Shown here in pieces: positions 11,460 through 20,188 of a DNA stretch of 64,000 nt. This DNA is from Planctomycetaceae bacterium (lineage in GTDB: Bacteria; Planctomycetota; Phycisphaerae; Phycisphaerales; SM1A02). The DNA lies in assembly GCA_947490615.1 (NCBI GenBank), contig CANLHK010000004.1, positions 62,001 to 126,000 of the forward strand. The letters are read 5' to 3'. The position numbers were made by a program, and so were the translations under genes. Under the pieces are notes generated by a model. The model made no database searches and was not told the origin of the DNA. It was given only the letters and a program-made list of their open reading frames with translations. Every line of letters begins with the position of its first letter. Positions within the stretch are counted from its first letter, which is position 1.

Positions 11460-14400
11460 ATGGGAAACGACGGTGGATCCTATCGACGAATCCGCATCCG
11501 AAGCGATGGCGTGCCTGTTGAGGGCCTGTACGACAGCGTGGTCGACACGCGTCTCAAGGCAGTGCTCGACGCCGCCAAGAGCGCGGGCATCGACGTTGGT
11601 ACGCGAGACCTGAAGGGGCGGGACGGCCGCTTGCTCGCGCGAGAACTCGCGTCCGTCGTGCTCGAGGCTCTCGAGTCGAAACTAAACGCTGATCAAGCCG
11701 CGACGCCAGCCGACCTCGACGTCGTGAATCGGCTGCTGCGATTCGCTCAACAAGATGGCGGCGAGGATGTGACCGCTGCGACAAACATGCTGCCTCTCGT
11801 GCTTGAGCGCATCGGGCCGCGGCACGACCGTAACCCACCGGATCTCTCTGACCATGGTCTCCTCACGGGGCGCGAGGGCACGGAGAGCCTGCTCGTTCAG
11901 CTCAAGCGAGAGCTCGCTACTTGCAACCGAGTGGATTGGCTGGTCTCGTTCATCAAGCTTGCCGCAGTCCGCATGCTGAAGTCGGATATCGAGGCGTTCT
12001 TGGCGCGCGGCGGATTGATGCGAGTCGTCACGACCGCGTACATGGGAGCGACCGACCCGAAGGCGCTCGAGGAGCTCGCAGCCATTTCCTGCGCACATGG
12101 TTCGCGTTTGCAGATTCGATTCTCGCGCGAGTCGGATGCGACGCGACTCCACGCGAAGGCCTACATCCACCACCGCGAAAGTGGTTTTGGGAGTGCCTAC
12201 ATCGGTTCTGCGAACCTCTCGCGACCCGCGCTCACCGAGGGGCTCGAGTGGACCGTCCGCCTCTCGCAGGCCGCATCGCCCGGCCTTTGGTCCAAGATCG
12301 AAGAGACCTTTGACCAGTGGTGGGGAGATCCTGACTTCGCCGAGTATGGGCTGACCGCAGATCATCCAACGCACGCACAATTCCGCGAGCTGGTCGCTCG
12401 CGAAAGGCGTGCGTTCGGATCAGGATTGAGCGAGCAGCTCTCATCGTTGCCGATCTTCGACCTGCAGCCGAAGCCATTTCAGCAAGCGATCCTCGATCGA
12501 ATCGCAGTTGAACGCGAGGAACTAGGGCGCGCAAGGCATCTCATCGTGGCCGCGACGGGGACTGGCAAGACCATGATCGCTGCATTCGATTATCGCGAAT
12601 TCGCTGCGAAGTTCTCGAAGGCAGAGGGTCGTGCGCCAAGGCTGCTCTACGTCGCGCACTCTGAACGGATCTTGAAGCAAGCGCGGCTGACTTTCGCGCA
12701 GGTCGGGCGCAACCTCAATTTCGGAGGCCTCCTCGTCGGCGGGCAGGACGACCGACCATGCGATGCGCTCTTCGCGTCGATCCAATCGTGGAACTCGAGG
12801 ATCGGGACCGCCACCCTTGCTGCCGATCACTTCGAGTACGTCGTCGTCGATGAGGTACACCACGGCGAGGCGCCAAGTTGGCGCAAGTTTCTCGAGTGGG
12901 TTCGACCGAGGACGCTGATCGGGCTGACGGCAACGCCTGAGCGCGCTGACGGACTCGACATCACCAAGCACTTTGAGGATCGCATCACTGCGGAGATTCG
13001 GCTTCCTGATGCCATCGGTCGTCGTCTCCTTGTGCCGTTCCGTTACTTCGGCGTCACCGACACGATCGATCTGCGCGATGTCGACTGGACGCCGCGTGGA
13101 TACAAGATGGACGAGGTGCAGCGTCGCTATCTCGAGGCTGGACCGCAGTGGATCGAGAACGTCAGGCGTGCGGCCTTCGAGTATGTGGCCGAACCGCTGA
13201 GCATGCGCGCGATCGGCTTCTGCAGTGGTGTTTCGCATGCGCGTGCGATGGCCGAGGTGTTCGAGCATGTGAGACTTGCAGCCCACGCCCGCGGCCAACG
13301 CGCGTTGCGTGCAGAAGCGCTCGATGGTGGAGATTCACTAGAGACGCGCGAGGAGGTCATTGGCCGGCTGCGACGCGGCGAGACGCAGGTGATCTTCGTC
13401 GCGGACCTCTTCAATGAAGGCGTCGACATTCCGGAGGTCGACACGGTGCTCTTCATGCGCCCGACCGACAGTCTTACGATCTATGTGCAGCAGCTCGGTC
13501 GAGGCCTGCGACTCTGTCCGTCGAGTGGCAAGGACTGCCTAACTGTCCTCGACTTCGTGGGGCAGTACCGGAAGGAGTTTCGGTTCGGTGATCGTCTCAG
13601 CGCGATGCTGGCCGATCCGGCGGTTTCGATCGAGTCGCAGGTCGAGCACGGCTTCACAGCACTTCCGCCGGGATGCTCGATCACTCTTGAACGCATCGCA
13701 CGAGAACAGGTGCTCGCGAACATCCGTGCGCAGACGCGATCGCAGCGCGAGCGGCTGATCGAGACTGTCAGGGCGCTGCGGGAGCGACTGCAACGGGTGC
13801 CGAGCATGCGGGAGTTCGTCGAGGCGACGCGTGTCGATCCGCGGCTCTTTTACGCGAAGAGGGACGCACGCATGACATGGTCGGGTCTTCTCCAAGGCGC
13901 GAGTCTCGGGGGAAGCGCTGAAGACCTCGAGGCGATCGAGCAGTTCATCGTTCCACTGCGAGCGAGCGCATCGGTTACCGATCGGAAGTTGGTGGAGTTT
14001 GGCTTAGCCCTTCTTGATGCTATTGAACGCGACAACCCCCTCTCGCCAACGGTGGCACGGGATCCGCGGCTTCAAGTGTTGCTCGTCGAGTTTGGCGAGG
14101 CTGTTCGCAGGAGGTCCGCGCGCGACACGGCATCGACTTCGGCCGAGGTCTTGGAAGAGCTGCGAGCGAACGCGCCGCTTCGGAGAGAGCTTCGTTCATT
14201 GCTGGATGCGCTCTCTGTGCGAGTCGTTGGATTGGCCCCGGTTCCAGCGGTCTCAGTTCCTGATGGCGTTCCGCTCGCGCTGCACCGGGTCTACACCCGG
14301 CGGCAGCTGTTCGCGGCGTTTGGCTGGGAGTCCATCTGGAGTGCGACGCCGCAGAGTGGTGTGGCCTGGATCGCGAAGTACTCGGCGTACCTCATGCTGG

Positions 14401-14732
14401 TGACGCTCGAGAAGGACGCGGTGACGTTCACCGAGCGCACGCGCTATCGCGACTATGGGATCAGCCCATCAGTGTTCCACTGGCAGAGCCAGGCCTCAGC
14501 GCGCCCGGACCGGGGAGACGGCCAGCACATCGTGCAGGCCAAGACTGGAGGCGCGACCATGTGGCTGTTCGTTCGACGGTCGACGGATGACGAGTATGGC
14601 ACCGAGCCCTACATCTTCCTGGGCGCGTTCAAGCCCACTTCGATCGAAGGGATGCAGCCGATGAGCGTGACCGGAGAGCTCGCCAACGCGATGCCCGCGG
14701 AGTGGTTTGAGATTGCGGCGCGGGCGAGGTAG
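11460..14732 (+). CDS. PLD-like nuclease / SF2 helicase / DUF3427 protein
   Basis: A 1090-residue multidomain protein. A phospholipase-D-like domain (about 130-290) has LHAKAYIHH (His231, Lys233) and GSANLSRPAL; the Asp of the classical HKD motif is not conserved. An SF2 helicase core (about 340-720) follows, with Walker A ATGTGKT (Lys370), DEVHH (from Asp464), GLTATPERADG and a motif-VI-like QQLGRGLRL. The rest, to FEIAARAR, matches the usual position of DUF3427. Proteins with this order are found in mobile and defence-associated loci and are presumed ATP-driven nucleases. It is convergent with an HNH nuclease gene 162 bp away. The start at ATG 11460 is supported by TAAGCT six bases upstream. 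Confidence 0.88.
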   Translation: MGNDGGSYRRIRIRSDGVPVEGLYDSVVDTRLKAVLDAAKSAGIDVGTRDLKGRDGRLLARELASVVLEALESKLNADQAATPADLDVVNRLLRFAQQDGGEDVTAATNMLPLVLERIGPRHDRNPPDLSDHGLLTGREGTESLLVQLKRELATCNRVDWLVSFIKLAAVRMLKSDIEAFLARGGLMRVVTTAYMGATDPKALEELAAISCAHGSRLQIRFSRESDATRLHAKAYIHHRESGFGSAYIGSANLSRPALTEGLEWTVRLSQAASPGLWSKIEETFDQWWGDPDFAEYGLTADHPTHAQFRELVARERRAFGSGLSEQLSSLPIFDLQPKPFQQAILDRIAVEREELGRARHLIVAATGTGKTMIAAFDYREFAAKFSKAEGRAPRLLYVAHSERILKQARLTFAQVGRNLNFGGLLVGGQDDRPCDALFASIQSWNSRIGTATLAADHFEYVVVDEVHHGEAPSWRKFLEWVRPRTLIGLTATPERADGLDITKHFEDRITAEIRLPDAIGRRLLVPFRYFGVTDTIDLRDVDWTPRGYKMDEVQRRYLEAGPQWIENVRRAAFEYVAEPLSMRAIGFCSGVSHARAMAEVFEHVRLAAHARGQRALRAEALDGGDSLETREEVIGRLRRGETQVIFVADLFNEGVDIPEVDTVLFMRPTDSLTIYVQQLGRGLRLCPSSGKDCLTVLDFVGQYRKEFRFGDRLSAMLADPAVSIESQVEHGFTALPPGCSITLERIAREQVLANIRAQTRSQRERLIETVRALRERLQRVPSMREFVEATRVDPRLFYAKRDARMTWSGLLQGASLGGSAEDLEAIEQFIVPLRASASVTDRKLVEFGLALLDAIERDNPLSPTVARDPRLQVLLVEFGEAVRRRSARDTASTSAEVLEELRANAPLRRELRSLLDALSVRVVGLAPVPAVSVPDGVPLALHRVYTRRQLFAAFGWESIWSATPQSGVAWIAKYSAYLMLVTLEKDAVTFTERTRYRDYGISPSVFHWQSQASARPDRGDGQHIVQAKTGGATMWLFVRRSTDDEYGTEPYIFLGAFKPTSIEGMQPMSVTGELANAMPAEWFEIAARAR

Positions 14733-14894: not shown

Positions 14895-15905
14895 TTAACC
14901 GGTGACTCGCGGCTCTCTCTTGTACACCCACTCCGCGATCAGTCTCACCGTCTCCTGATCCACTTCCGCCGCGCCGAACTTCTTTACCAGCACCGCTGCG
15001 TGCTCGTCGTTCCTTTCAAGCCACCGCTCTCGCCACTCCGGCTTCTTGAGTTCGTCCCGCATCTTGTTGTTCACCTCTCTACTCGCCAACACCAAGTTGA
15101 ACGGCGAGTCGAACGGATAGCGCGCCCACGGAATGAAGTGGTCGACCTCGCCTTTGTTCGGTGCGGCGAGTTTGGTTCCCGAGTAAAAGCAGCGTCCCGA
15201 CTGCAGTTCATAGAACCGCTCGGCGTAAACCGACACAGGGCTCCGACTCGCGCCAAACAGAAATGACTCCAGCTCGCGGTCGGCGGCGAGTTTGTCGTTG
15301 TTCTCGCGAATCCAGAGTGCCCAGCGGGACTGGACAAGCGCCACGATGATGCCGCGCATGCGGCGAAGGGACGCGGACACGCCAGGCTTCAGGACGATGC
15401 GCTTGAGCGTCGCACACTTCGCCGCGGTTGCTGGGTGGTCGAAAAGAAATCGATCATTCGTCGACTCAGAGGTCTTACCAATGGTCTGCAGACAGTGAAT
15501 CGGGTTCTTGGCGAGCGTCTTGATCGCCTCATTCACGAGACCATCGCGCGACGCGCGGTACACGCGGAGTCGTTGATAGCTCGACTGAGAGGTGCGCGCC
15601 TCTTCCTTGAGCAAGGTGATCATCTTCGACGGCTTCGCGGCTTCCCGATTCTGCTTGAGGATCGCGGCCACGCGCGGATACGGCCGCGCCATGTTCCAGT
15701 ACAGCGCGAGGTATTGCCGCGCAATCTCCTCGAGCTCTACCTCGAGTTCCTCGCCCGTGTCGTCTCCCCGTTCGACTGCGATGTTGGTCAGCGCGATGAG
15801 CAGTGCAAACTTGTAGGTGCTGGTGAAGCGGCCCTGAGAAAGCAGCCGCTCAATCTTCCCGAGGAAGTCCAGCTGTTCTTGGGCGGTGGGAGCGGGGCGC
15901 GCCAT
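14895..15905 (-). CDS. HNH endonuclease family protein
   Basis: A 336-residue protein with a largely helical N-terminal 230 residues that I do not recognise. A C-terminal HNH nuclease follows: GRCFYSGTKL with a single Cys instead of a CxxC pair, EVDHFIPWARYP (catalytic His near residue 255), NLVLASREVNNKMRDEL. The spacing matches HNH_4-type nucleases that cut or nick DNA with a metal ion. ATG 15905 (MARPAPTAQEQ) is chosen over upstream starts because the added residues read as low-quality Gly/Arg sequence and a TACGCT box lies 11 bases before it. It faces the helicase gene tail to tail, which suggests a shared genome-defence role, though they are not one operon. Confidence 0.8.
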   Translation of the reverse strand: MARPAPTAQEQLDFLGKIERLLSQGRFTSTYKFALLIALTNIAVERGDDTGEELEVELEEIARQYLALYWNMARPYPRVAAILKQNREAAKPSKMITLLKEEARTSQSSYQRLRVYRASRDGLVNEAIKTLAKNPIHCLQTIGKTSESTNDRFLFDHPATAAKCATLKRIVLKPGVSASLRRMRGIIVALVQSRWALWIRENNDKLAADRELESFLFGASRSPVSVYAERFYELQSGRCFYSGTKLAAPNKGEVDHFIPWARYPFDSPFNLVLASREVNNKMRDELKKPEWRERWLERNDEHAAVLVKKFGAAEVDQETVRLIAEWVYKREPRVTG

Positions 15906-15946
15906 GATTTGTGGGGAGCGTAATCCGTCGCAGCCACTCGCGCCCC

Positions 15947-17572
15947 TCACCCACTCGCCCTCGCCAAATCCTCCGCGCTCCCAATGTCGGCCCATTTCCC
16001 ATCCAGCCTCGTCGCCTCCAACTCGGTGCGTTCCGACAGCCACGCGATCAAGTGCCCAGGCGCATCAGGATTCCCACTGCTCGTGAGGTACTCGCGCACC
16101 AGTGTCGGGAGTTCTCGCGGCAGCAGATAGACCGCAATCGCGCTGAGGTTCGACTCTGGACTCGCGGGCTTTTCGCGCAAGCGCGTCACGCGGGTGCCGC
16201 GTTCGTCGAGCAACACCTCGCTGTACTTCCCACCTGGAACGGGCGTCGGTACCTCGCGCACGACGAGTTGTCCTCGTCCGCTTTGTGCGAACCTCTTGGC
16301 GAGTCGCGCGAGGTCGAACTCGAAGAGGTTGTCGCACGCGAGGACGAGGTAGCCGTCGAGGTCGTCGCGTTGTGGCGCTTGCTCGAGCGCGAGTATGAGG
16401 TCGCGCACAGCGCCGAGTCGGGAGTCGTTGGTCATCGCGCCGTCGTTCACGATCGAGAGTGGGAAGCGCGCTTGCGCGTCGTGCTCCCAAGTCACAAAGT
16501 CGGCGTGGAAGCGGCCGTTGGCGACGACGACGCCGTCAACCGCGCACTCCGCGCGTTCGACTTGTCGCAGCACGCGCGTCATCATCGGCACGCCGTCGAC
16601 TTCGAGGAGCGGCTTGGCCTTGTGCAGCGTGATTGGATAGAGCCGCGTTGCGAAGCCTGCTGCGAGGAAGACCGCGCGCAATCGGGGCGTGGGCAGCGCC
16701 ACGGTCGGCGCGAGCGTCGTGTGCCCGAGCGCGCGGCAGGCTGCCTCGAGGGTCGTGCGGTGCGTTTCATCGCGAACGGCGAAGAGCACCGCACCGCCTG
16801 AGCCTGGGAACTTCGCTGCCGCGCCGAGAGAACGGCCGAGCTCAATGAGCGCGCGGTCGGCGGGTGCGATGTCAAAGATGGCACTGCGAAGATCGAAGTT
16901 GCGATCGACGCACGCGAGAAACTCTGCGTGATCACGCGCTTCGAGTGCTGCGCGGCCTGTGAGCGCGTTGTCGGCGAGCGCTTCCATCACGCTGCGCACC
17001 CGTTGATCGCCCGACTCAAAGCGCGCGTAGATCGGCGCGTGCACATCGCCTGAGCTCGTGCCCACCTGTCCGTGCCACGCGAGGAGCAGTGGGGGAAGCA
17101 GCGTTGGATCGAGTCGCTCAACCGAGGCCTCATCAAACGGCGCGCGGAAGTCCATCGCCGCGAGCCCCTCGTGCGATTGCACGAGTCGATCAAGCGGGCC
17201 TGCACGAATCCCCAGCACTTCGTTTTCGGTGCGCCACGCGAGTTCTGCGATGCGCGTGCGCGAGAGTCTCAGGTCAAACCAGTCGTTCCACGCGCGCAGC
17301 GCTGCAATCAGAAGCGCGCTTGAACCCGAGAGTCCTGCTTGAAACGGGATGTTGCTGTTGGCTTCGGTCGAACACGGTCGCGCCGCGCCGTCGATTCCCA
17401 GAGTCGTCCATGCCGCGCGCAGGTGCGCCGAGTCGATCGAAATCTGCGCTGCATCACGCAGCGTCACTCGTGCTTCAAGTTCCCGCACGGCAAAGCCGAG
17501 TCCGCGGCCTCCATAGAGATCGGAGGGATTGCCGAGCAATCCGACGCGGGCATGGGCGCGAGCCGTGAGCAT
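15947..17572 (-). CDS. bifunctional GHMP sugar kinase (glucuronokinase-like) / nucleotidyltransferase
   Basis: A 541-residue fusion. Residues 1-290 are a GHMP kinase: RVGLLGNPSDLYGGRG at the N-terminus, the ATP loop GLSGSSA (80-86) and the third motif AAAKFPGSGGAVLF. The opening and the phrase ENEVLGIRAGPLDRLVQ resemble plant glucuronokinase. From about residue 298 a nucleotidyltransferase begins with VFLAAGFATRLYP and KAKPLLEVDG and contains ACDN. The expected chemistry is phosphorylation of a sugar at C1 followed by transfer to an NDP carrier, the same logic as the FKP fusion of Bacteroides but with the domains in reverse order. The actual sugar is inferred. The start is at ATG 17572, with a TATCCT box nine bases upstream. 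Confidence 0.85.
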   Translation of the reverse strand: MLTARAHARVGLLGNPSDLYGGRGLGFAVRELEARVTLRDAAQISIDSAHLRAAWTTLGIDGAARPCSTEANSNIPFQAGLSGSSALLIAALRAWNDWFDLRLSRTRIAELAWRTENEVLGIRAGPLDRLVQSHEGLAAMDFRAPFDEASVERLDPTLLPPLLLAWHGQVGTSSGDVHAPIYARFESGDQRVRSVMEALADNALTGRAALEARDHAEFLACVDRNFDLRSAIFDIAPADRALIELGRSLGAAAKFPGSGGAVLFAVRDETHRTTLEAACRALGHTTLAPTVALPTPRLRAVFLAAGFATRLYPITLHKAKPLLEVDGVPMMTRVLRQVERAECAVDGVVVANGRFHADFVTWEHDAQARFPLSIVNDGAMTNDSRLGAVRDLILALEQAPQRDDLDGYLVLACDNLFEFDLARLAKRFAQSGRGQLVVREVPTPVPGGKYSEVLLDERGTRVTRLREKPASPESNLSAIAVYLLPRELPTLVREYLTSSGNPDAPGHLIAWLSERTELEATRLDGKWADIGSAEDLARASG

Positions 17573-17581
17573 GAAGCCAAG

Positions 17582-17610
17582 AGGATAGTGCGTGCGCGCT
17601 TCTGTACACT
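17582..17610. promoter_or_regulatory. paired divergent -10 boxes
   Basis: The 46-bp gap between the sugar-kinase fusion and the Nramp-like gene holds TATCCT on the minus strand (17582-17587, nine bases from its ATG) and TACACT on the plus strand (17605-17610, eight bases from ATG 17619). The two promoters would overlap back to back, so the genes may compete for polymerase or share control. Confidence 0.45.
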
Positions 17611-17618
17611 CGACGCCG

Positions 17619-19037
17619 ATGGACTCGCCTGACCACGCTGACACTCGCGGCATCCCCATGGTTCATCCGCCTGATCCTGCGCGGCTCGCTGCGGATCGCG
17701 CGTGGCTCAGGGAGGTTTCAGAGCGTCCGTGGCTCACGCGGCAGTTGGCCTATCTTCGCCGTGGTGGACCCGGATACCTGCAAAGCGCGCTCACTCTCGG
17801 CGGCGGCACCGCAAGCGCGTGCATTCTTTCGGGCGCAGCGTTCAGCTACGAACTCCTTTGGGTCGCGCCCCTGGGCATGATCCTCGGCGGCATCGTGTTC
17901 ATGGCGATCGCACACCAGACGCTTTCGACGGGCATGCGTCCGTTTGAAGCGATGCGTGTCCACGCGGGACCAGTCGTCGCGTGGGGTTGGGCGATCGGCA
18001 CCGTGGTCGCGTCGATCGTTTGGCACTTCGCGCAGTACTCACTCGCGTCGACAGTGCTCGTGGATCTCGCGGAAGTCGCGGGATTTGCCGTGCCGCGCTG
18101 GCTCATGGGAGTCCTCGTGTTGGCATGGGCGGTTCCCACGGCACTCTCGTTTGGTTCAGGCAAGAAGTTTGCTTCCGCGTTCGACACGCTCATGCGTTGG
18201 ATGGTCTGGCTGATCGTCGCGATGTTTGGCGTGGTCGCGTTTCGCCTTGGTTTCGGCGAGCACGCGAGCGAGATCGCCAGCGGATTCGTTCCACACATCC
18301 CACTCGACCGTGGCGATGTGCGCGCCGACGATGTCATCGTGGCTGGGCTTGCGACCGCCGTCGGCATCAACATGACCTTCTTGTACCCCTACACGCTGCT
18401 CGCACGCGGTTGGGGACGCGAACACCGTGAGTACGCCAAGGCTGATGTGGTGTACGGCATGGTGTTGCCGTACATCCTCGTCACGGCACTCATGGTGATC
18501 GTTGCAGGAGCGACGCTGTCCGCAGGGTTCACGGGTAAGACCATCGGTCCCGTCGACGCAGCGAAGTCGCTCGGGTCCTTGCTCGGACCAGTGTGGGGTC
18601 GTGTCTTCTTCGACCTCGGTCTCCTCGGCATGCTGCTCACGACGATCACGCTGCACATGGTCTGCTCGGGGCTCGCGTGCTCCGAGATGTTCAACCTCAA
18701 AATCGGTTCACGCGCCTACCGCATCGCGACGCTGCTCCCGACGCCGGGAGTGCTCGGCAGCGTGTACTGGTCATCGATGTTTCTCTGGGTCGCCGTCCCG
18801 ACCAGCATCATCGCGGGCGCGATGCTCCCACTGGCGTACTACGGCTTCATGAAACTGCAGTGGAGTCGCGCGTATCTTGGAAAGGACCGCCCGCGCGGAG
18901 GCCTCGCATTCGCGTGGTTGGGGACGATGGGCGTCGGCACGCTGATCCTCGCGTGGTTTCTTGCCATGACAGTCGCGAAATCCGTGCCTGCCTACTGGAG
19001 TCGCGTTGCAGCGCTCTTTGCAGGAGGCGCGGAGTGA
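17619..19037 (+). CDS. divergent Nramp-like transporter
   Basis: A 472-residue membrane protein with about eleven hydrophobic segments in the LeuT-like order of Nramp metal transporters. The first-helix break that reads DPGN in true Nramps is GPGYLQSALTLGGG here. The sixth-helix MPH motif is INMTFLYPYT. Both key metal-liganding residues (Asp and Asn of DPGN, Met of MPH) are therefore missing, so substrate may not be Mn or Fe. The TACACT box eight bases before ATG 17619 supports this start. The next gene overlaps by four bases (GTGA), so the two are co-translated. Confidence 0.7.
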   Translation: MDSPDHADTRGIPMVHPPDPARLAADRAWLREVSERPWLTRQLAYLRRGGPGYLQSALTLGGGTASACILSGAAFSYELLWVAPLGMILGGIVFMAIAHQTLSTGMRPFEAMRVHAGPVVAWGWAIGTVVASIVWHFAQYSLASTVLVDLAEVAGFAVPRWLMGVLVLAWAVPTALSFGSGKKFASAFDTLMRWMVWLIVAMFGVVAFRLGFGEHASEIASGFVPHIPLDRGDVRADDVIVAGLATAVGINMTFLYPYTLLARGWGREHREYAKADVVYGMVLPYILVTALMVIVAGATLSAGFTGKTIGPVDAAKSLGSLLGPVWGRVFFDLGLLGMLLTTITLHMVCSGLACSEMFNLKIGSRAYRIATLLPTPGVLGSVYWSSMFLWVAVPTSIIAGAMLPLAYYGFMKLQWSRAYLGKDRPRGGLAFAWLGTMGVGTLILAWFLAMTVAKSVPAYWSRVAALFAGGAE

Positions 19038-20188
19038 AGGTCGCGATCATCGGCACTGGCTTCTTGGCGCGCACACGGGTGCGCTGTTGGCGGCGCGTGT
19101 TTGGAGTCTCAATCGAATTGGTTGTCGCGGCGCGCGATCGCGCGAAAGCCGAGGCGTTCGCGCGGGCGCATCAACTGCAATCGGTCTGCACGATCGACGA
19201 GCTACTTGCCGATCGCTCCGTGCTGTTGGTCGATCTCTGCGTGGCCAACCGCGCGCACCGCGAACTCTGCCTTCGCGCTGCTGCTGCGGGAAAGCATGTG
19301 CTCTGCACGAAGCCGCTCACCGTCTACTCGGGGCAGGATCTCGATGAGCGTGCCACAGCCGCCGAGGTCGCGACGGTCCCGCGCGCGACGATGCTTGCAC
19401 GCGCCGTCGAGGATGCAGAGGCGATGGTCGCGGCGTGCACGCGCGCTGGAACGCAGCTTTTCTACGGCGAAAATTGGTGTTTCGCGCCAGCGATCGTGCG
19501 CGCCGAGGCGTTGGCGTCTGCCTCAGGAAGCGCGATCAACGAGATGCGCGGCTGGGAGAGTCACTCAGGTTCGCACTCCGCCTACGCGCGCGATTGGCGA
19601 CACACCGGCGGCGGTGCACTGCTTCGTCTTGGCGCGCATCCCATCGGCACGATGCTTTGGTTGAAGCAGCGCGAAGGTGAGCGATTGCACGGGCGCGCGA
19701 CGCGCGTGAACACCGTGACGGCCGAAGTGCGCGAGTCTTCGGATCCGACGCAATCAGGTTCGTCGGTCGCCACTCAACCTGAGTCGTGGGGCGCCTGCAC
19801 ACTCAAGTTTGACGACGGCAGCGTCGGTGTCGCGTACGGCAGCGACCACATGCTTGGAGGCATGCAGAGTCATCTCACACTCCTCGGTGGCGCGTTTCGT
19901 TTCGAGTGCGCGCTGAGTCCCATCGACACGCTGCGCGCCTATGCGCCGCGCGATGGCGTCTTCGGGAACGAGTCGATCATGGAGAAGGTCGACGGTCACG
20001 CGGGTTGGTCGACACCGATCCCTGACGAGGGGTGGGGTTCTGGTCAGCAGGGACTCGTGCAGTCAGTCGCGGAAACGCTTTCGCGCGGTGAAGCGGCTGT
20101 GTGTGATGGCGCGCTCGGCGCCGAGGTGGTTCGCGTGGTTTACGCCGCCTACTTGAGTGCGGCCGAGGGCCGACGCATCGCGTTGTAG
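19034..20188 (+). CDS. Gfo/Idh/MocA family oxidoreductase
   Basis: A 384-residue NAD(P)-dependent sugar-type dehydrogenase. The Rossmann start VKVAIIGTGFLA gives the GxGxxA loop at the very N-terminus. GKHVLCTKPLT corresponds to the family EKP motif with Glu replaced by Thr and the Lys kept. GGGALLRLGAHPI matches the GGG..D.G.H. substrate region, with Asp replaced by Arg. It probably oxidises or isomerises a sugar or cyclitol; the substrate is unknown. GTG 19034 overlaps the Nramp-like stop (GTGA). The neighbouring sugar kinase/nucleotidyltransferase fusion and CBM9-like protein make a carbohydrate role plausible. Confidence 0.85.
   Translation: MKVAIIGTGFLARTRVRCWRRVFGVSIELVVAARDRAKAEAFARAHQLQSVCTIDELLADRSVLLVDLCVANRAHRELCLRAAAAGKHVLCTKPLTVYSGQDLDERATAAEVATVPRATMLARAVEDAEAMVAACTRAGTQLFYGENWCFAPAIVRAEALASASGSAINEMRGWESHSGSHSAYARDWRHTGGGALLRLGAHPIGTMLWLKQREGERLHGRATRVNTVTAEVRESSDPTQSGSSVATQPESWGACTLKFDDGSVGVAYGSDHMLGGMQSHLTLLGGAFRFECALSPIDTLRAYAPRDGVFGNESIMEKVDGHAGWSTPIPDEGWGSGQQGLVQSVAETLSRGEAAVCDGALGAEVVRVVYAAYLSAAEGRRIAL

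Follow-up and report, generated by a model that had tools for sequence, protein, structure and literature searches.

What might a single polypeptide accomplish in which a sugar kinase of the GHMP type runs directly into a nucleotidyltransferase (NTase)? The question is raised by a 541-residue protein encoded in the window, by which we mean the whole 64,000-nucleotide stretch of planctomycete DNA analysed here. The protein is probably a bifunctional uronate-activating enzyme, with D-glucuronate as its most likely substrate and UDP-glucuronate as its product.

The fused gene and its two domains

The gene and its parts are as follows, with the kinds of evidence that define them.

15947..17572, minus strand: fused gene, 541 residues, GHMP kinase (N-terminal) and nucleotidyltransferase (C-terminal); ORF, Pfam, model and dN/dS
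16697..17572, minus strand: kinase domain, residues 1–292; motif positions, conservation, Pfam and structural comparison
16682..16696, minus strand: linker of approximately five residues (LPTPR, 293–297)
15950..16681, minus strand: nucleotidyltransferase domain, residues 298–541; Pfam and structural comparison

The ORF runs from 17572 to 15947 without an internal stop. A longer ATG at 17659 would give a protein of 570 residues, and the alignment with the nearest relative, L004, covers residues 1–540 as numbered from the 17572 start. Pfam detects GHMP_kinases_N (E value 6.6e-14), GHMP_kinases_C (6.1e-5) and NTP_transferase (1.4e-21) along the protein in that order, all above cut-off, in agreement with the order of domains given in the initial annotation. 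The AlphaFold2 prediction, made from an alignment of 43 sequences including that of the window, is a confident two-domain model with a mean pLDDT of 95.5 and a pTM of 0.91.

Fused relatives with the same order of domains are present in four other assemblies, one with 78% identity (L004) and three with 65–68% (L005, L006 and L007). Pairwise comparison of the fused gene with these four gave dN values of 0.15–0.28, dS values of 0.88–1.07 and dN/dS ratios of approximately 0.17–0.27. These data clearly show that the fused gene evolves under purifying selection, the combination of low dN and high dS indicating that the fused frame itself is maintained. In addition, the dN/dS values, the same-order relatives in four other assemblies and the confidence of the model together rule out chance or an assembly accident as the source of the fused ORF.

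The N-terminal domain belongs to the GHMP kinase superfamily and contains the motifs LGNPSD (residues 13–18), GLSGSS (80–85), GPLDR (125–129) and GSGG (257–260). Asp128, within GPLDR, is presumably the catalytic base, as in other GHMP kinases, and NPSD, GxGSS, Asp128 and GSGG are present in all 16 of the aligned fused and split kinases. The C-terminal domain shows structural Z values of approximately 27 to UDP-glucose pyrophosphorylases and carries GFATRL (306–311), Lys318 and Lys320, Asp414-Asn415 and Asp529, to which we assign catalytic roles on the assumption that they act as in the RmlA/GalU family.

Kinase family and its nucleotidyltransferase partners

The placement of the kinase was examined in a tree of 48 rows, comprising GK1 (the fused and split kinases, 16 rows), GK2 (longer related kinases, ten rows, including one of Rufibacter plasmid origin), HddA-like kinases, mevalonate kinases and galactokinases. 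The rows represent eight of 12 HddA-like loci, five of eight galactokinase loci plus L003, and all eight mevalonate kinase loci; the HddA-like and galactokinase loci left out gave a wrong, empty or overlong extracted frame, and L058 was excluded from the kinase trees as it is cut at a contig end. The eight mevalonate kinase rows are planctomycete sequences above the cut-off, and the eight HddA-like rows are themselves below the HddA cut-off. GK1 and GK2 form one branch (support 100/99) apart from the HddA-like kinases, mevalonate kinases and galactokinases, in support of the glucuronokinase-like character first proposed for the kinase; the clustering with heptose-type or mevalonate kinases that was named in advance as refuting it is not seen. 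Within this branch, GK1 has a support of 91/74, is absent as a group from another tree and survives the AU test (p 0.385); the GK2 branch is weak (61/41), and 'GK2' is a convenience name rather than a proven clade. The mean identity of the window kinase is 34.9% to GK2, 20.6% to the galactokinases and 18.7% to the HddA-like kinases. Residues common to GK1 and GK2, and not to the HddA-like kinases or galactokinases, include the NPS of LGNPSD, Arg129, Gln132, His178, Arg184, Asn225 and Arg229. An approximate sequence of the Arabidopsis glucuronokinase, of use as a lead only, has all of the GK1/GK2 signature residues and groups with GK2 inside the kinase branch (98/98).

The fused kinase–NTase was found at six distinct planctomycete loci, among them the window and L058, a further same-order fusion. 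In ten other planctomycete genomes (L047–L056) the kinase and the NTase are encoded by adjoining separate genes in the same order, and these ten pairs, with the six fused loci, bear out the two-step logic of sugar activation first proposed for the window protein. The junctions of the split pairs show a four-base stop/start overlap in five of the ten, a one-base overlap in one and a two-base gap in another; in the close relatives L048, L049 and L054 the NTase starts approximately 25 bases past the kinase stop, at a start codon that is uncertain. Given these overlapping, coupled pairs, a fusion would arise most simply if the kinase gene lost its stop codon, and we infer that the fused form is most simply a derivative of the two-gene operon, kinase then NTase, that is present in several planctomycete families. 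The fusions may share a single origin, which has a support of 74/77 in one tree, while the NTase tree requires two changes. At L057 (genome G376) the kinase is present without an adjoining NTase, and at L059 the NTase is located at a contig end.

The fusion is patchily distributed within the window's genus: of 15 other genomes, 13 have no match, one contains the complete fusion and one retains an end fragment of 30 residues at the edge of a contig. In the wider search of planctomycete genomes at most three candidates per genome were scored, so second copies can be missed; the counts of neighbouring genes were taken from tblastn, as ORF calling sometimes chose the wrong strand. The fused protein was not confirmed in any viral contig by a scan sensitive to close relatives only, and structure matches in BFVD were NTase-type folds with 8–21% identity. 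In a plasmid search yielding 26 records, none covers 80% of the fused protein, and among the best 25 of the 26, one match is to a kinase and all others are to the NTase part. The plasmid NTases of Halocatena salina and Lactococcus garvieae lie within loci for glycosylation or polysaccharides, and the PLSDB gene tables, which are incomplete, annotate no GHMP kinase near them in the stretch shown. Planctomycetes, too, have broadly similar NTases that occur singly, and 11 of these, placed in the NTase tree, lie closest to the paired NTases; with such stand-alone relatives, the NTase domain by itself does not fix the sugar. Haloarchaeal NDP-sugar synthases match the domain at 30–36%, and they share a distance tree with the NTase domain of an animal enzyme considered below (PMC3938481).

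The GK2 kinases were examined at 20 loci, i.e. 18 planctomycete regions, which are a selection of the matches, L064, and L105 on a plasmid of Rufibacter tibetensis. A GalU-type gene adjoins the GK2 gene, on either side, in 16 of the 20 (a contig end truncates one of the 16), the loci without such a neighbour being L108, L122, L124 and L125. Three of the four GalU neighbours scanned pass the TIGR01099 galU cut-off, and the fourth reaches 273.8 of 326.8 bits. Three arrangements are of particular relevance.

L105, 7998-9936 (Rufibacter tibetensis plasmid NZ_CP012644.1; Bacteroidota): gene for a glucuronokinase-like GHMP kinase, followed immediately by galU
L109, 2117-6990: GK2-GalU-DctP-DctQ-DctM operon
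L110, 2067-7020: GK2-GalU-DctP-DctQ-DctM operon

The genomes of L109 and L110 are of the window's order and family, and both loci have a complete DctPQM TRAP system after the kinase–GalU pair; TRAP genes occur in at least two of the 20 GK2 loci, as judged from 20 neighbour proteins scanned. Among solved structures, both DctP proteins match 4x8r and 4n8y best, with 4n91, 4ovr and 4mhf/4mij also high. 4X8R holds glucuronate and 4N8Y galacturonate, according to a source that warns that co-purified ligands may be non-native (PMC11668362), and 4N91 and 4MHF bind D-glucuronate (PMC7660916). Two arginines and one asparagine are described as ligand contacts (PMC7660916), and the DctP alignments retain a pattern of arginines and asparagine common to these solved relatives, which may include those contacts. 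The L109 and L110 operons are thus predicted, from their gene content, to provide the uptake and UDP-activation of a hexuronate. This wider pairing of kinase and uridylyltransferase, with a predicted hexuronate importer at two loci, is a more interesting result than the fusion itself.

Proposed reaction and alternative explanations

In the reaction that we favour, the N-terminal GHMP domain would use ATP to phosphorylate a free hexuronate, most likely D-glucuronate, at its anomeric oxygen, yielding glucuronate-1-phosphate, which the C-terminal RmlA/GalU-fold domain would combine with UTP to give UDP-glucuronate and pyrophosphate. The UDP-glucuronate would presumably be destined for cell-surface glycans. 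It is from gene neighbourhoods that we infer the substrate and the nucleotide, since the GalU-type gene beside the GK2 kinases points to UTP, the similarity of the TRAP binding proteins to solved hexuronate binders points to a uronate, and the following gene beside a split kinase points to glucuronate.

L056, 4419-5204 (genome G030): full-length myo-inositol oxygenase (MIOX) gene, divergent neighbour of the split kinase; E values 4.9e-93 (Pfam) and 5.8e-93

MIOX is established as an enzyme that produces D-glucuronate, as restated in PMC3938481. G030 is the only one of 16 module genomes searched to contain it, and it was not found in the window's own genome. Across 392 planctomycete genomes, 12 have a full-length MIOX match and 16 any match, and in the other eleven with a full-length match nothing matched the window protein at an E value of 1e-8 with up to three candidates scored per genome. 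Uronate isomerase (UxaC) was found in none of the 16 module genomes, as against seven of 14 control genomes; the isomerase pathway by which uronates are usually degraded was thus not seen in these 16. All 16 have the N-domain of the UDP-glucose/GDP-mannose dehydrogenases, a family not specific for UDP-glucose, which makes synthesis of UDP-glucuronate de novo also probable and salvage not obligatory. Bacterial UDP-glucuronate is generally attributed to UDP-glucose dehydrogenase, and many planctomycetes feed on polymers of algae and plants that are rich in uronates. If our proposal is correct, the kinase route would let planctomycetes place scavenged sugar acids in surface polymers without burning them.

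With the same chemistry, the fused branch might instead activate another hexuronate, such as galacturonate or mannuronate, or a modified uronate. We regard this as unlikely. The TRAP binding proteins are about equally close to galacturonate-bound 4N8Y and glucuronate-bound 4X8R, and the fused-branch kinases lack the N-terminal segment of the GK2 kinases, so that their specificity may differ; the MIOX gene adjoining the split kinase in G030, however, points to glucuronate, and the zebrafish enzyme accepts glucuronate only among nine sugars, with a Km of 31 μM (PMC3938481). It is more improbable still that the NTase uses dTTP, GTP or CTP and makes a product other than a UDP-sugar. Such a nucleotide would be compatible with the failure of the NTase domain to reach any NCBIfam equivalog cut-off, whatever the specificity, and with its top match to rmlA_long (68.5 of 320.25 bits); the galU model scores 24.5 of 326.8 bits, and the fold is shared with GalU/RmlA. 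UTP is favoured over these by the GalU-type partner of the GK2 kinases and by the requirement for UTP reported for the animal NTase domain (PMC3938481). That the kinase acts on heptose, mevalonate or galactose and is joined to an NTase by happenstance seems to us very improbable indeed, even though the best PDB sequence match of the kinase part is an HddA-like protein (4n3o) and its top Foldseek rows are mevalonate kinases. No NCBIfam equivalog cut-off is reached by the kinase domain, the window protein scoring 37.9 of 163 bits with TIGR00549 and 47.5 of 403 bits with PRK03926 (both mevalonate kinase models) and 36.3 of 600 bits with the HddA model NF049969; these wide margins and the separate tree branch led us to reject all three identities. 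Structure comparison was uninformative as a guide to the substrate, with galactokinases, the heptokinase WcbL and a mevalonate kinase tied at Z values of approximately 32.

The genes divergent from the fused gene bear on a further possibility.

17592..19037, plus strand: Nramp-like transporter, divergent from the fused gene; Pfam and tblastn
19034..20188, plus strand: Gfo/Idh/MocA oxidoreductase, its start overlapping the transporter stop

The Nramp-like transporter is present in seven of 18 related loci, the window included, and in all seven aligned copies the DPGN and MPH-type motifs, which we take to be the Nramp metal-binding motifs, are replaced; with these lost, the transporter may carry a non-metal substrate and is possibly a candidate uronate or inositol carrier. 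Of the 18 loci that carry a GK1 gene or its NTase, again counting the window, 17 have an orthologue of the oxidoreductase close to these genes, the remaining locus being L058, which ends inside the kinase. Its substrate may be a uronate, a uronate phosphate or a UDP-sugar. UDP-glucuronate could accordingly be an intermediate, the product or the free uronate being oxidized or reduced, perhaps at C3, by this neighbour; we consider such an unusual NDP-sugar, which is compatible with the activation of glucuronate proposed above, rather doubtful but worth keeping in mind. It is favoured by the constancy of the oxidoreductase and its strong conservation (65% mean column identity in 16 of the 17 copies, L005 being cut and left out), and the oxidoreductase model (mean pLDDT 81.8, with two stretches below 50) is nearest to KanD2 and GenD2, which act on sugar hydroxyls of aminoglycosides, and then to scyllo-inositol dehydrogenase. 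However, none of the NCBIfam equivalog cut-offs is reached by the oxidoreductase, and the phylum Planctomycetota abounds in Gfo/Idh enzymes. Nor is there an obvious follow-on enzyme, since a rough clustering of ORFs from 23 loci gave no neighbour family in more than four loci aside from the module's own gene clusters.

On the other side of the fused gene, a minus-strand gene (14895-16043) has a Cas9-type HNH domain (HNH_4), the only stretch of it that the NCBIfam Cas9 models match. As listed, this ORF extends into the last part of the fused gene, and its true start is probably further in. Convergent with it is a plus-strand gene (11460-14732) for a PLD nuclease-helicase-DUF3427 protein, and the two could form a defence pair.

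Comparison with known systems

HddA and HddC are a GHMP kinase and a small NTase of one heptose activation pathway. The HddA-like kinases occupy a branch separate from that of the window kinase, which lies far under the HddA cut-off. In plants, glucuronokinase is a kinase alone and the UDP-sugar pyrophosphorylase is a separate enzyme; the approximate sequence of AtGlcAK1 (EC 2.7.1.43) aligns with the window protein at 34.5% over 290 columns and shares its NPSD and NFD(L/I)R motifs, which would place both in one GHMP sub-family. The Arabidopsis enzymes have been used in PMC6888640.

The initial annotation had compared the protein with FKP, which likewise holds a kinase and a pyrophosphorylase in one chain and whose kinase domain superposes on that of the window protein (Z 29.7). 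The opposite order of domains noted there is correct, since FKP has the NTase before the kinase in a protein of 949 residues with a beta-helix domain and a long linker, acting with GTP and fucose (PMC11982464). An FKP-like enzyme was rejected on the reversed order and on size, as the 541-residue model leaves no room for an extra domain, and a closer precedent than FKP, the closest of all, is the glucuronokinase-pyrophosphorylase of animals and fungi (PMC3938481). That work also extends glucuronate salvage beyond the plants, to which the annotation had chiefly confined it. The original interpretation is thus partly supported, being largely right but stopping short of the closest precedent.

A search of the open-access literature, with most subscription journals outside its range, returned no bacterial glucuronokinase and no kinase-first fusion. 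The term 'glucuronokinase' appears as a predicted community function in an ecology paper (PMC8571626), indicating that the annotation exists in functional databases. For bacteria and archaea, PMC3938481 reports stand-alone NTases only; the NTase–kinase fusions that it describes are from fish, frogs, tunicates, polychaetes and fungi, with protist sequences also included in its tree.

The animal proteins DrGKUP and XtGKUP resemble the window protein in joining a GHMP glucuronokinase to a short bacterial-type NTase in one chain, for which conversion of glucuronate into UDP-glucuronate is reported (PMC3938481). In the zebrafish protein the NTase is N-terminal and the glucuronokinase C-terminal, and its NTase activity was seen as a trace only, in a 70-hour assay (PMC3938481). 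The window protein has the opposite order, with the kinase first, and is smaller (541 residues compared with 619 for animal GKUP). It is a reverse-order bacterial variant of this kind of enzyme and apparently part of an undescribed bacterial UDP-uronate salvage route. A compact bacterial enzyme that makes UDP-glucuronate in one chain would be of use in glycan synthesis. On balance, and with somewhat less assurance than for the fused protein itself, we lean towards such a route being widespread in bacteria, with one glucuronokinase-like family coupled to a uridylyltransferase in at least three ways: as a kinase–NTase operon, as a kinase–NTase fusion and as an operon in which the partner is a different enzyme, of the GalU type, and which in some cases includes a hexuronate TRAP importer. 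The animal NTase–kinase fusion would then be an independent, mirror-image solution, and the mirrored bacterial and animal fusions would be evidence that the animal NTase domain really partners its kinase.
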